A stretch of DNA of 64,000 bases, taken from positions 1,727,803 through 1,791,802 of the forward strand of contig NC_087380.1 in NCBI RefSeq assembly GCF_963675165.1, read 5' to 3'. The stretch is from Halichondria panicea. Taxonomy: Eukaryota; Porifera; Demospongiae; Suberitida; Halichondriidae. Within the stretch, counting starts at the first letter, position 1. Each line of letters opens with the position of its first letter. The notes below the pieces were generated by a model, which saw only the letters and a list, made by a program, of their open reading frames with translations, was not told the DNA's origin and searched no databases. The position numbers and the translations under genes were made by a program. Below are positions 11,676 through 61,867 of this stretch, in pieces.

Positions 11676-14600
11676 CTACTTGTTCTCTGTGTTGAAGTCA
11701 GTGGGTGCATAAGCTACACAGGCAGTGAGCTGGTAGTCTGCAGGAGGGTCCATCACCTCATAAGCAGCCTCCTCCTCCAGTTCGCTCAACTCCTCGTAAT
11801 CATGGGAGGGGAGATGACTCATCACCACTGGGGGTAGTCTGCAGGAAATAGTCCAGTAGCTATATACAATTGACAATGCAATAATAGTTAGAATAAACGT
11901 CATGAGCCCTCTAAAACCATATGTATACACAGCTAATATAACTTCTTCATTTACAGACCAGATGCATGCATGCACACTAATACTCACTCTGTTGCTTGAC
12001 TGCCTGTCCTTTCATCACTCATGTCCTTGGATCCAGACCTCCGTTGTCTCAGTAACAACAGTACAAACATTACAATCAGTGTTAGCACAGCAATGGCCAA
12101 GACTCCAGCAACCACCCCACCAGCCACTGCACCAACATTGGCCACTACACTCTCTGTGAGTGAGGTAGTAGAAGAGGTTGAAGTTGGAGTAGCCACCTGT
12201 GTCCGATTAGTGATATCCTCAGGGCACTCTGGACTATTGAGGTTAGCAATGACAACCGGACAACTGTTAGTCACACTGAGGCCTGCTCTCTGCACCACAA
12301 CGATTGGATGATTCTCAATCCATTGTTCCATTAGCCTAGCCAGTTGTATGGTAGATACACTCTCTGATCCAGTGAGCACAGCTCTGTAGGTCACATGACT
12401 AGGGGAGTCATCGAAACAAATAATAAAGGGATTCAAAACGAGGGAAGAGTTAAATCCACAGGCACACTGGCTTTCAATGCCTTGTGTTAGACTATTGGTG
12501 ATGTCATCTGTTTTCATACCAGCGTCTTGTTCAGTGTATACTCTGCAGTTTGTTATTCCCTCTAGACGAATTTGAATATGCATACCTGCATGTGAAGTGG
12601 TTGAAGAAAAATGCTAAATTGCAAAATACCATGCATGGGATGAGATATTATATTGAAATTGAATCAACACATGCTTTATATATAAACACTTACTCATGAA
12701 CTCAATGGTGTAGTGAGCAGCTACAGTGTGTTCCCCCTCAAGCTGACTGGAGGTGAGGATGACCTGACAGCTGTACTGACCAGCGTCTGACAAGTAGAGA
12801 CTGTCAAAGTTGAGGGTTGCTGTGCTGGGCATGAGTGACCCTCCCTCCCTCGTCCACTGGTAGGAGAGGGTGGGTTGTAGAGAGGCCCCTCCAGTCAGGG
12901 AACAAGTGAGGGAGAAACTCTGACCAGCCATTGGAATACCACTGGGGCTGATCACCACTTGTATGGCTGGAAGAAGAAAGGTGTAACCAAAACAATCAAT
13001 TAACTTTCACTATGACAGAATAAACAAAGCTACTAGATCCATAGCTGCATGTAGTAACTGTTATCAACATGAACTAACTCACCTAAACAGGTTGGAGCGC
13101 CTGGACTCCAGTTTCCATTAGCCTCACATGTTCTTGTATTTGACCCAACTAAGATGTGCCCTCCATCACAGCTGTAAGTAGCTGTATTCCCAAAAGTGAC
13201 TCCAGAGGATGTGTCCACTGCTCCATTACTTATAGACAGGGAGCCGCAGCTGATAACTAATGAACCAATGCATAATTAATTGTGACACATGCACAAATCC
13301 CACTACTTTACTGTATAACCGCTATGCCATGCAATATCTGGATACTGGCACAGTTGGTGAACTGTTTCATATGCTGCCGATATGGCAGATATTGGCACAC
13401 TGTTTCCTTTGATCTCAGAGGTCAAAATGTAACAAGTACAGTAACTCATACTTACCACCACTAAAAATCTAAAAATAAGCAATTGATATAACGTACTGTA
13501 AAGCTTTATGTATACAACTCACTTTGACAAGTGATGACACCTCCACTCCACATTCTGTCAGACTGACACACCCGATCAGGTCCATTGGATGGTTGGTAAC
13601 CAGTAACAGCACAGCTGTGTGTAGACACGGCTCCCACTAACCTGGGTGAGGAGATTGGATTGTAGCTGATGGTTCCATTGTTTAGTACAGTGAGGTCATC
13701 ACAGGTGGCTGTAAAGAAATACACAATAATTATCACGTATGTATGGTGTAACAGTGAACCAAACAACAGACCTGTACAAGTAGGAGTCGTGCTATTACTC
13801 CATCCACTGGTAGTACATGTCCTCACTGCTGTCCCACTGAATAGGTAGCCAGCTGTGCAACTGTAGCTAGCCGTGGAGGTTGTTACTCGGGGGATAATGG
13901 AGTCACTGTATTGAATGACTCCATTTGTTGGATTAGGGAGAGTTGGGCAAATTACTGTGTATAAGAGAGAAAGACGTACACAATACAAAGAGTTGTGACA
14001 ATCTCACATTCACAACTTGGTGTGGTACCACTCCACAGTCCATTGGTATGACAGCTCCGAGTAATTATGGTGTCACTAGCGGTACCATCAATCCTGTAAC
14101 CATTGACACAGGTGTAGGTGGCCACAGTGTCAGGTGGTCTGAGGTTACTAGTTCCACCATTGTACGATATGTCTGAATTAGCTTGATTGCCGAGGTCAAA
14201 ACAAGTCACTACAAGGAATGATAATAATTAAGTATGAATGATAAAGCTACTCACATAGACAGGTTGGTGTACTGCCGCTCCACACTCCATTAGCTTGACA
14301 AGTCCGACTAGTATCACCAATGAGTAGGTATCTAGAGTTACATGTGTAGGTAGCAGTCATCATGAAGGTGGTTCCAGAGGATGTACTCACTGCTCCATTG
14401 GATGGGTCAGGGAGATCATTGCAGTCAACAGCTACACGTGTGAAAAACAGAAAGTCAACACACTGTGATATCACCGATACTCACGTTCACAGGTGGGTTG
14501 AGAAGGACTCCAAGATCCAGTAGCCTGACAGGTTCTAAAGATAGTACCACTAATCATGTACCCATTGATACAGGTGTAAGTGGCCACTTGACTAAAGGTG

Positions 14601-60100: not shown

Positions 60101-61867
60101 CTATACAGTCTCTCTTCTAATTCCCTAGCCACACACATTAATTATGATTTCCAGTGGCGCACAAATGGTTTGCTGCTTAGAGTGGCGCTTAGCGATAGTA
60201 AAGTAATAGTAGCTGTTTCATGACGTTCAGTGTGGATTATAACGGTCGGCATTCGGCTATTTACCGACCCAAGAACCTGAATAACCGGTCAGTTTAGCTC
60301 TGGGCTGCCACAATGACCTGCCAGTACTCACGAGATCTAGTTGCGCATGCGCCCTAGCATGCTGATTCAGCAAGCTAATTAGTTGCTATTGGATGCTGAT
60401 TCAGCAAGCTAAATAGCCACGTGCGAAATTAATTATATTGTAAAGTAGCTACCTAGCTATGCCCTCTAACCGTCACTCTTCTCAGCATTTAGCTGTCAAA
60501 CAGCCTGAGAGACAAGTTTATATAGGAAGAGGCAAGTCCATTGAACTGGAGAAAGATCACTAAACACTATACCATGACTGTTGTGAATCTGAGCAAAAGA
60601 AGCACATCTAGCTCTACAACCAGTCCTGATGAAGATGAGTCAACCATTTCACTGGCTGAATACTTATAGGATAGTTCAAAGACTAAATTTTCACTTGTGC
60701 ATATTAATAATTAGACTGTCATAATTAATTTTATCAGAATGAACGTCAATGAGCTATAAATAATAATGCATGGTAGATCCATGTCTCAGGGCATCAGACC
60801 CTAGACTTTCCTCATTAGTCGGGCCTTGCGACAGTCATGGCAGAACAAGAAACTACAATGACAGAGCATTTTGGTTGTGGTCTGACATAAGTCAGTTCCT
60901 GTCAGATTTCTTATAATCCACACTGGACGTTATAATAGATGAATTGTATGTATAGCCTCAATTTCAGTAACGCCAGCAAAAAGTAATTCCGAACTTAATG
61001 CTTGATTAGAGTAAAACATTTTGTATTTGGTGCTTCTATTGTGATGGTGCATGGCGATATAATCAGTACAGTACTCACGTGCACAGGCTGCAGGTGGTGC
61101 TGGAGACCAGGTACCGTTGCTTGTACCATCACTCATACAAGTTATCGGAGTAGCTCCACTGATGGTGTACCCAGTGTCACAGGTGTAAGTGGCCATGTTG
61201 GTGACTGCATCATATGAGATCCTTCCATTAGACAGGGGACTCAGTGTGGGGCAAGGAGCTGTAGGGGTGGGGGTTAGTATTGGACATAGACAATATAGTC
61301 AGCACTCACTGAAGGTGATACATCTCCTCTCATCGGTGGCAGTCCTTACACAGCAGTGTTCTCCATCAGGACTGAAGTGTGTGGGACCACGATGCAGAAC
61401 AACGCCAACTCCAGAAACACCAGTGATGAACAGATCGTCATCAACTGCAACTGTGTTGGGATTGTTCAGGTCGCCTATGGGCACCTGACTCCCACCAGGA
61501 CCCTGCCATACTACACCACCAGGGTCTAAAACGTAGCAATACCAGGCTGGTGGATTAGTACCAACTCCTGACCCAACATCAGAGAACGAGATGATCTCTC
61601 CAGTGTGGTCAGTGCCATCGGGCTCAGTGGGTGATGCCAGTCGATCTGTATGCCAATAATAATTCTGCATGGTACCAAATCTATACTAGATAACACCAGT
61701 AGCACAAGATTTATATACATGTACTTTGTATGAGTATATATAGACTAGATCTAGCTATATTACTGGTTGCACTGCATGTACATATATATAAACTCACACA
61801 ACGTCTGCCCATACACTAGGGAAACACTTCCCAACAGACAGTAGAGAAATAACCTTGAGGGGAACAT
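57193..61867 (-). CDS. Type III receptor J: Ig-like N-domain, 6 CCP, Ig, TM, ITAM-like tail (appears intact)
   Basis: Signal from ATG 61867 (MFPSRLFLYCLLGSVSLVYG); N-domain about 61638-61308 (AWYCYVLDPGGVVWQGPGG, SPDGEHCC); CCPs about 61257-61076, 60032-59848, 59788-59615, 59562-59386, 59333-59159, 59005-58818; Ig 58754-58424 (CHTELSTCCRGVDNNG, GRWTGPDG, GTYCCQV); TM exon about 58171-58003 (IVAVAAAGWVVAGVLAIAVL); tail about 57367-57193 with HDYEEL, AAYEVVDQPCPPPP, DYQL, AYAPTDFITENK. All exons are open. A 698 bp element sits in the intron after the first CCP, and a 1.35 kb Mutator-like element lies 37 bp upstream of the ATG, replacing the native promoter-proximal sequence. A CA repeat precedes the TM exon. 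Confidence 0.78.
58172..58252. repeat. (TG)n tract abutting receptor J TM-exon acceptor
   Basis: Interrupted TG run with a G-rich centre on the plus strand, directly at the TM-exon acceptor on the gene strand. Confidence 0.9.
60228..60925. mobile_element. Non-autonomous DNA element in receptor J intron
   Basis: 698 bp with 15 bp inverted ends CAGTGTGGATTATAA and a 6 bp direct repeat GACGTT (60222-60227, 60926-60931). Empty sites are in receptors C (25411-25440) and G (44151-44180). It holds a 31-codon frame starting MTVVNLSKRS of no known family. Confidence 0.75.

Follow-up and report, generated by a model that had tools for sequence, protein, structure and literature searches.

To our knowledge, no receptor for self/non-self recognition has been identified in sponges, where allorecognition has until now been tied to aggregation factors. 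The adhesion molecules of the sponge Geodia cydonium have Ig-like domains reported to be polymorphic; we know of no CCP array among them, nor of a clustered family of comparable size. The Alr receptors of Hydractinia are not known to have a CCP stalk. Their Ig nature was confirmed by structure prediction (PMC11067881, citing Huene et al. 2022), and Alr candidates carry tyrosine motifs (PMC12065747). The fester co-receptors (FcoR) of Botryllus schlosseri, in the fuhc locus, present one sushi domain, two C2 Ig domains, and tails with an ITIM, a hemITAM or a core motif, according to the sections of the source used here (PMC12065747).

The window analyzed is a stretch of 64,000 nucleotides from the sponge Halichondria panicea. 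It is a corner of a megabase-scale receptor array, which spans about 0.53 to 1.81 Mb of contig C4. In genome searches, 47 of 51 matches to the receptor tail and 65 of 72 matches to the N-terminal Ig-like domain (IgN) were on this contig. The initial annotation had proposed a tandem family of single-pass receptors combining CCP and Ig domains at 11676..61867. The family was confirmed, with its signal peptides and single transmembrane (TM) segments. The locus is also real, although that interval covers only part of it. The features of the window are the following.

57193..61867, minus strand: A1, intact, 722 residues, spliced at GT-AG, single terminal stop
61867-61798, 61645-61310 and 61258-58818: A1 signal peptide, IgN and six CCP exons
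58753-58424, 58172-57998 and 57370-57193: A1 Ig, TM and tail exons
41285..45084, minus strand: A2, intact, 709 residues, spliced open frame
21632..26404, minus strand: A3, intact, 720 residues, A1 layout, spliced open frame
33946..38207, minus strand: A4, mixed or partial copy; signal peptide-like exon, CCPs, Ig, TM, tail; incomplete
11676..15776, minus strand: B1; signal-peptide exon, IgN, eight CCP, Ig (IgX), SEA-like and TM exon, tail
47447..51522, minus strand: B2, a recent copy of B1; stop codon within the SEA-like exon
39935..40738, minus strand: B-type fragment, incomplete and frame-shifted; SEA-like, TM, tail
19118..21200, minus strand: C1; signal peptide, single Ig, TM2, odd tail
54694..56805, minus strand: C2, duplicate of C1 with its own frame breaks
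51039-51365, 44532-44864, 25852-26169 and 15294-15620, minus strand: IgN exons besides that of A1
11679..11837, minus strand: tail exon of B1, YEEL-x8-YEVM, then YQLT and YAPT
19118-19273, 21635-21808, 33946-34119 and 39935-40108, minus strand: tail exons
41288-41449, 47450-47614, 54694-54867 and 57196-57369, minus strand: tail exons
10536..11483, plus strand: tetraspanin-like gene, convergent with the B1 tail
17766-18651, 46393-47277 and 53439-54377: tetraspanin-like copies
39294..39593, minus strand, and 32794-33102: proline-rich exon copies

Three ectodomain types exist in the window, as initially proposed: type A (IgN-CCPx6-Ig), type B (IgN-CCPx8-Ig-'SEA-like') and type C (one Ig). However, both C copies are disrupted, which rules out three functional architectures. 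Among the nine tail-bearing copies, only A1, A2 and A3 are clearly intact after splicing; five of the remaining six are broken and one is doubtful. The tail of A2 ends four codons early, and its start was placed at an internal ATG because the first ATG of the family is ACG in this copy. A3 has a low-scoring donor after its sixth CCP. In both B1 and B2 the signal-peptide exon loses the frame, which a weaker donor (GTATGG in B1) would avoid; the rest of the B1 frame is open. A4 presents a stop in one CCP, no IgN was found within its limits, and an inverted repeat (36032-37373 / 61905-63252) has one of its arms inside it. C1 has a TAG after the Ig, a frame change before TM2, and a tail where F replaces the first Y and a stop lies further on. 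For A1-A4, B1 and B2, the six genes of types A and B that were checked, the TM-to-tail introns are GT-AG and compatible in phase (phase 2). Likewise, the ectodomain exons have GT-AG flanks and phase 1 nearly everywhere, A4 being the main exception.

The IgN exon, of about 330 bases, encodes a hypervariable Ig-like domain. This outermost domain changes unusually fast, and the signalling end varies little among the genes. Among ten exon types, it is the only one with a dN/dS significantly greater than 1 (1.58, 53 paralogues, p = 6e-10); the membrane-proximal Ig and SEA-like domains lack this signal. Such a value is expected of recognition receptors and supports in part the function initially proposed. 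It also bears on a simpler explanation, where the array would consist mostly of decaying duplicates with no present function. The broken B2, C1, C2, A4 and B-type fragment agree with it. Nevertheless, decay predicts a ratio of 1, and the genes A1, A2, A3 and L078 read open over 10-11 exons. We consider this explanation very improbable.

None of the 78 IgN members matched the Pfam Ig models at E 0.1. The predicted fold of IgN appears to resemble an Ig domain in structural alignment (VIA-align), with a modest score. The Sushi/CCP model PF00084, scanned against one CCP exon of the window (window:59007-59369), gave 43.2 bits against a gathering cut-off of 20.7. The second proximal domain of type B matched 37 Pfam families, and the 25 shown include no SEA model. 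Its predicted structure has the order beta-alpha-beta-beta-alpha, but with a pLDDT of only 48.5.

We compared 57 IgN copies from the Halichondria panicea genome with 119 database IgN proteins, of which 108 align over at least 80 amino acids. Their best identities leave a gap: 13 proteins at 98% or more (at least two of them the window's own), none at 95-98%, two at 90-95%, and 93 below 90%. This gap fits individuals with different repertoires. It would be so if the array were a histocompatibility complex, with IgN heads that distinguish own from foreign tissue in the manner of Hydractinia Alr or Botryllus fester/FcoR. However, a difference of species explains the gap equally well, because the database proteins carry no species label and the comparison took only some of the IgN copies of the genome. 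The tie of sponge allorecognition to aggregation factors also counts against this reading. In its favor, dN/dS exceeds 1 in the membrane-distal domain only, and the layout is broadly that described for FcoR, with variable Ig, sushi, Ig, TM and tyrosine tail over 53 loci (PMC12065747). Two readings are still live, and allorecognition, one of them, we regard as possible, if rather doubtful.

Outside the window, the sister genes L079, L121 and L122 have the head of the tail receptors (IgN-CCPn-Ig-TM) fused to a tyrosine phosphatase (PTP). This fusion is a new finding. The Y_phosphatase domain was detected in two L079 exons (E 4e-30 and 1.6e-22). The catalytic motifs WPD and HCxxGxxR are present in the three genes, as WPDHGVPD and HCSAGVGRTG, and an I-set Ig exon sits between TM and PTP. 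On contig C4, the next module after the IgN exons is the tyrosine tail in 28 of 62 cases and the phosphatase in 15 of 62. The CCP stalk of the C4 genes read varies from 3 to 13 domains per gene. The phosphatase-tailed sisters, the hypervariable N-terminal domain and the megabase scale go beyond the initial annotation. We found no description of an IgN-CCP-Ig receptor family in the open-access literature; subscription papers and preprints were mostly outside the scope of that search.

All nine tail exons of the window are on one strand, as first noted, and this is the minus strand. The initial annotation read them as ITAM-like, with the form HDYEEL-x8-YEVV/M. The x8 spacing is present in 9/9, but HDYEEL is exact in six only; the rest show HDYEGL, HDYKEL and HDFEEL. 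The first tyrosine is kept in 8/9 and the second in 9/9, followed at +3 by V (seven tails) or M (two). In a set of 42 tails, the first motif is YxxL in 38, and the second has V at +3 in 40 and M in 2. An ITAM is defined as YxxL/I - x6-12 - YxxL/I, and an ITIM as [S/I/V/L]xYxx[I/V/L]. Despite two tyrosines at a spacing of eight, a strict ITAM is ruled out, since 42/42 second motifs have V or M as their last residue. A strict ITIM is ruled out by the residues at -2: H, P, Q or Y before the first tyrosine, and A (one G, one P) before the second. Two later tyrosines, mostly YQLS/T and YAPT/YAST, have no I/V/L at +3. The core motif Y-x-x-I/L/V, as defined for FcoR (PMC12065747), is present as YEEL/YEGL and YEVV.

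Purifying selection on the whole tail was not significant (omega 0.91, p = 0.54). Nor did conservation at the four motif positions significantly exceed that of the other tail positions (permutation p = 0.145). Yxx-hydrophobic motifs are also endocytic sorting signals, similar in look to those of the tail. The similar motifs, an omega near 1 and the tetraspanins nearby would suit a family of homophilic adhesion molecules or complement regulators, with a tail that only anchors the protein or directs its trafficking. This leaves unexplained both the phosphatase-tailed sisters with the same head and a dN/dS above 1 in IgN only, and we find it improbable. Concerning the tetraspanin-like copies, those at 17766-18651 and 46393-47277 are split between frames, and the Pfam Tetraspanin model was tested on one copy, 53439-54377.

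Judging from sequence, the genome encodes tandem-SH2 proteins of Syk, Shark and SHP types. In a search for silicatein, as a mark of siliceous sponges, the best hits were to cathepsin L (241 bits), against 181 bits for silicatein alpha. Among the tyrosine-kinase matches listed on contig C4, none lies within the IgN blocks. The proline-rich exons at 32.8 and 39.3 kb were considered as alternative receptor tails. This was ruled out; they resemble an exon 3' of a PI3K p85-like gene, just past the array.

In the fly, Shark reads a phagocytic receptor, and a Shark-like kinase is encoded here. This favors the second live reading, where the heads diversify against surface molecules of microbes or symbionts, the CCP stalks resemble complement receptors, and the tails drive or restrain phagocytosis. 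CCP and Ig ectodomains are found in immune receptors, and Sushi- and Ig-domain genes of other sponges respond to microbial patterns in the parts of the reports used (PMC6208332, PMC8242945). However, the array size and the selection fit allorecognition as well. We consider microbial recognition plausible, short of probable.

The locus is probably an array of type I receptors that serve in recognition. The receptor plan consists of a signal peptide, the membrane-distal IgN, the CCP stalk, a membrane-proximal Ig (or Ig and SEA-like domain) and one TM helix. It ends in a short Y-x-x-L-x8-Y-x-x-V/M tail or, in C4 sister genes, in an Ig exon and then the phosphatase. The IgN would bind a ligand that itself varies, from another individual or a microbe. 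Clustering of receptors could lead Src-family kinases to phosphorylate both tail tyrosines. Proteins with SH2 domains, either p85 or the tandem-SH2 Syk/Shark or SHP, may then be recruited to these tyrosines. The phosphatase-tailed sisters might see related ligands and oppose or tune this signal. The repertoire would grow by tandem duplication, CCP exon gain or loss, and exchange among the copies, with surplus ones decaying.

More tentatively, and unlikely to hold as a whole, we suggest a sponge histocompatibility or immune complex with one hypervariable Ig head on two opposite, side-by-side outputs: the kinase-substrate tail (Y-x-x-L-x8-Y-x-x-V) and the tyrosine phosphatase. What an individual would read is the balance between 'write' and 'erase' receptors that engage variants of one ligand family. 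If true, an activating/inhibitory receptor logic would rely on a phosphatase rather than on ITIMs, and the complex may supply the receptors still missing from sponge allorecognition. The array is a bounded candidate, with a measurable hypervariable exon. Therefore, polymorphism, linkage and binding are directly testable.

Compared with known systems, the Geodia cydonium molecules are likewise from a sponge and have Ig-like domains. Receptor-type PTPs of the CD45/CD148 kind have the ectodomain-TM-PTP layout. The sister genes share it, with the HCSAGVGRTG and WPD motifs, but their ectodomain is IgN-CCPn-Ig and the I-set Ig exon follows the TM. Hydractinia Alr are also single-pass IgSF genes, in a cluster rich in pseudogenes (PMC11067881); polymorphism and genetics are established for Alr, whereas the sponge array is known from one assembly. 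The closest analogue, set beside the array by description, appears to be FcoR: a large clustered type I family with signal sequence, variable-type Ig, sushi, further Ig, TM and a tyrosine-motif tail that includes Y-x-x-I/L/V (PMC12065747, in part). The general order SP-IgV-sushi-Ig-Ig-TM-tyrosine tail is matched in the cluster, and the domain numbers differ. FcoR belong to a chordate and have one sushi and two C2 Ig. In contrast, the sponge array has its longer CCP stalks, a single proximal Ig that the SEA-like domain may accompany, tails that are neither strict ITIMs nor strict ITAMs, and sisters that end in a phosphatase. Giving one head either a substrate tail or a phosphatase would amount to an activating/opposing design of its own kind, comparable to, yet unlike, NK-type and Botryllus systems.

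An exon search seeded with reading frames from the window itself recovered nine tail exons and other domain exons, all on the minus strand, in agreement with the nine same-strand tail exons of the initial annotation. Phase 1 GT-AG sites flank the ectodomain exons almost throughout, and the junction between the transmembrane (TM) exon and the tail is in phase 2. When spliced, receptor genes A1, A2 and A3 give one open frame each, of 722, 709 and 720 residues. These frames contain the signal peptides and single TM segments noticed initially. They open with the signal peptide and an N-terminal Ig-like domain (IgN); six CCPs and an Ig-like domain containing a Cys-Cys pair come next, followed by TM and tail. 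In type B genes (B1 and B2), IgN is followed by eight CCPs, then by a conventional Ig (Pfam Ig_3, 7.8e-8) and a SEA-like domain ahead of TM and tail. B2 is interrupted by a stop, and the signal-peptide exon of B1 and B2 loses its frame unless a weaker donor is used. The three ectodomain architectures proposed before are distinguishable as types A, B and C, but both copies of type C, which has one Ig, are broken. Blocks of the window are recent duplicates (e.g. 10.5-19.1 kb and 46.3-54.8 kb, 94.8%). Long CA/TG repeats at 34.9 kb and 58.2 kb lie in introns before the TM exon and reach its splice acceptor. Changes in their length could affect splicing.

The window occupies positions 1727803-1791802 of contig C4. 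The assembly (131 Mb, 39 contigs) has at least 51 tail matches, 47 on C4, and at least 72 IgN matches, 65 on C4. With two split matches merged and one weak match dropped, C4 holds 62 IgN loci. The IgN blocks lie at 0.53-0.80, 0.96-1.01, 1.27-1.42 and 1.74-1.81 Mb, plus three loci at 3.1-3.5 Mb. Stretches read elsewhere repeat the gene plan, the number of CCPs ranging from 3 (L080) to 13 (L079); the gene in L078 is open over 775 residues. A dispersed version on contig C1 (L114) has two CCPs and ends in a tyrosine-bearing tail of a different kind. The homeodomain matches in the genome number only 28, and a nuclear COX1 fragment reads TGA where tryptophan is expected at two positions; both observations fit a sponge. 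The presence of silicatein, searched for in the genome, was not confirmed.

We analyzed selection on 53 IgN exons (5 from the window, 48 elsewhere), retained from 72 rows after leaving out, for example, split rows and one with a stop. Their pairwise dN/dS was 1.36 (codon bootstrap 1.03-1.79), compared with 0.36-0.72 in nine other receptor exon types. A one-ratio codon model, which exon-limited exchange can disturb, was applied to alignments with exchange tracts unmasked and gave IgN an omega of 1.58 (p = 6e-10 against 1). The value remained above 1 (p < 0.02 each) with gap-free columns (1.44), in random sequence halves (1.64 and 1.46) and in both exon halves (1.35 and 1.65). In the same model, SEA (0.48), IgC (0.34), CCPa (0.72), CCPc (0.57) and CCPd (0.65) were significantly below 1. 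IgX (0.60), tail (0.91), TM (1.06) and CCPb (1.00) did not differ from 1. However, counter to selection on IgN, the IgN of the three window A genes alone has pN close to pS (0.146-0.175 versus 0.152-0.171); their whole-ectodomain pN/pS is about 0.6.

The two type B copies were compared site by site.

11676-15776: B1
47447-51522: B2

Their exons, synonymous sites included, are more diverged than the introns between them. Differences affect 66 of 2667 exon sites and 10 of 1024 intron sites (p = 0.003; a rougher exon tally gave 64/2740, p = 0.008). Synonymous sites alone differ at 23 of 636 positions (p = 0.0004 against the introns). Since the excess is present at synonymous sites, the pattern points to exon-limited exchange between copies more than to selection.

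The tail set comprised 42 sequences (9 from the window, 33 elsewhere; two contain stops). The first motif tyrosine is Y in 38 and F in 4, with L at +3 in all 42. The second is invariant (42/42), and its +3 is V in 40 and M in 2. Two further tyrosines occur in 40/42 and 41/41 tails. The two-tyrosine motif of the ITAM-like reading stands, its second half ending in V/M, but neither a strict ITAM nor a strict ITIM was found among the 42 tails. Motif positions deviate in 3.6% versus 8.9% for the rest, without significance (permutation p = 0.145). Possible readers of these tyrosines are encoded in the genome. In the stretch L118, an SH2 exon finds its best relatives among solved structures in SYK (4.9e-35) and ZAP-70; a further SH2 exon precedes it by 4 kb. 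L116 holds an SH2-ankyrin-SH2-kinase gene (ankyrin by eye, kinase by the genome match list), and L117 has SH2-SH2-PTP exons (PTP, tyrosine phosphatase, by the same list).

Sister genes carry a phosphatase instead of the tail. The order in L079 is SP-IgN-13 CCPs-Ig-TM-basic juxtamembrane-Ig (I-set)-PTP. In L121, IgN and seven CCPs precede an Ig with 79% identity to the window A-type Ig; TM and the second Ig exon come next, and the PTP exon after them shares 99% identity with its L079 counterpart. In L122, a PTP-type gene has its signal peptide about 0.2 kb beyond a tyrosine tail. The agreement of L121 and L122 confirms the fusion of an IgN head to PTP in L079. An I-set Ig exon, apparently cytoplasmic, lies between TM and PTP in the three stretches.

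L079 6609-6860: I-set Ig exon
L121 3453-3665: I-set Ig exon
L122 3202-3408: I-set Ig exon

C4 (7.8 Mb) accounts for 127 Y_phosphatase rows among the 150 of 176 matches listed; its blocks at 0.33-0.51 and 2.1-2.6 Mb show no IgN among the matches listed there. After the 62 C4 IgN exons, the next same-strand module is a tail in 28, PTP in 15 and another IgN in 18, and in one case nothing follows. The count rests on 43 tail loci, with four second fragments removed, and on the 35 PTP rows listed for 0.5-1.4 Mb. Two of the pairings with a tail and one with PTP are doubtful, the partner being more than 10 kb from its IgN; three PTP pairings were followed through as genes. At 1.27-1.38 Mb, PTP follows in 9/9 IgN. 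The block at 0.96-1.01 Mb has 11 IgN exons, 2.6-7.4 kb apart, with no tail or PTP among the matches listed. One of them (L035) continues via CCPs to an A-type Ig. These genes perhaps have a third kind of ending.

Other genes accompany the array.

10536-11483, plus strand: tetraspanin-like gene
17766-18651, plus strand: tetraspanin-like gene
46393-47277, plus strand: tetraspanin-like gene
53439-54377, plus strand: tetraspanin-like gene
9411-9917, plus strand: proline-rich exon upstream of a tetraspanin gene
16785-17150, plus strand: proline-rich exon upstream of a tetraspanin gene
52493-52941, plus strand: proline-rich exon upstream of a tetraspanin gene
C4:1809501-1816500 (L113): PI3K p85-like regulatory subunit gene, with RhoGAP (Pfam), proline-rich, SH2 and, by eye, iSH2-like parts

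Each tetraspanin-like gene (Pfam match tested on one) converges on the tail of a type B or type C copy. They were duplicated along with the receptor tails, and two copies are split between frames. The p85-like gene lies about 20 kb past the window, directly beyond the receptor array; the best relative of its N-SH2 is p85 alpha (4e-42), and the proline-rich exon 3' of it resembles exons inside the array. This neighbour is suggestive because two tails, those of B1 and B2, have YxxM. Its closeness may nevertheless be coincidence.

Judging by its anatomy in sequence, the array is probably a recognition receptor family. A microbial ligand is quite possible, and an allogeneic one is possible. Among database IgN proteins, whose sources carry no species label, 93 of 108 compared stay below 90% identity to each of 57 copies from this genome. 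Strong polymorphism would fit this, and so would an origin in other species. The consulted portions of two papers on sponge immunity mention Sushi and Ig genes (PMC6208332, PMC8242945) and do not describe the architecture of this array. Botryllus FcoR is the closest known system in plan (PMC12065747), and Hydractinia Alr resembles the array in its genomic behaviour (PMC11067881).
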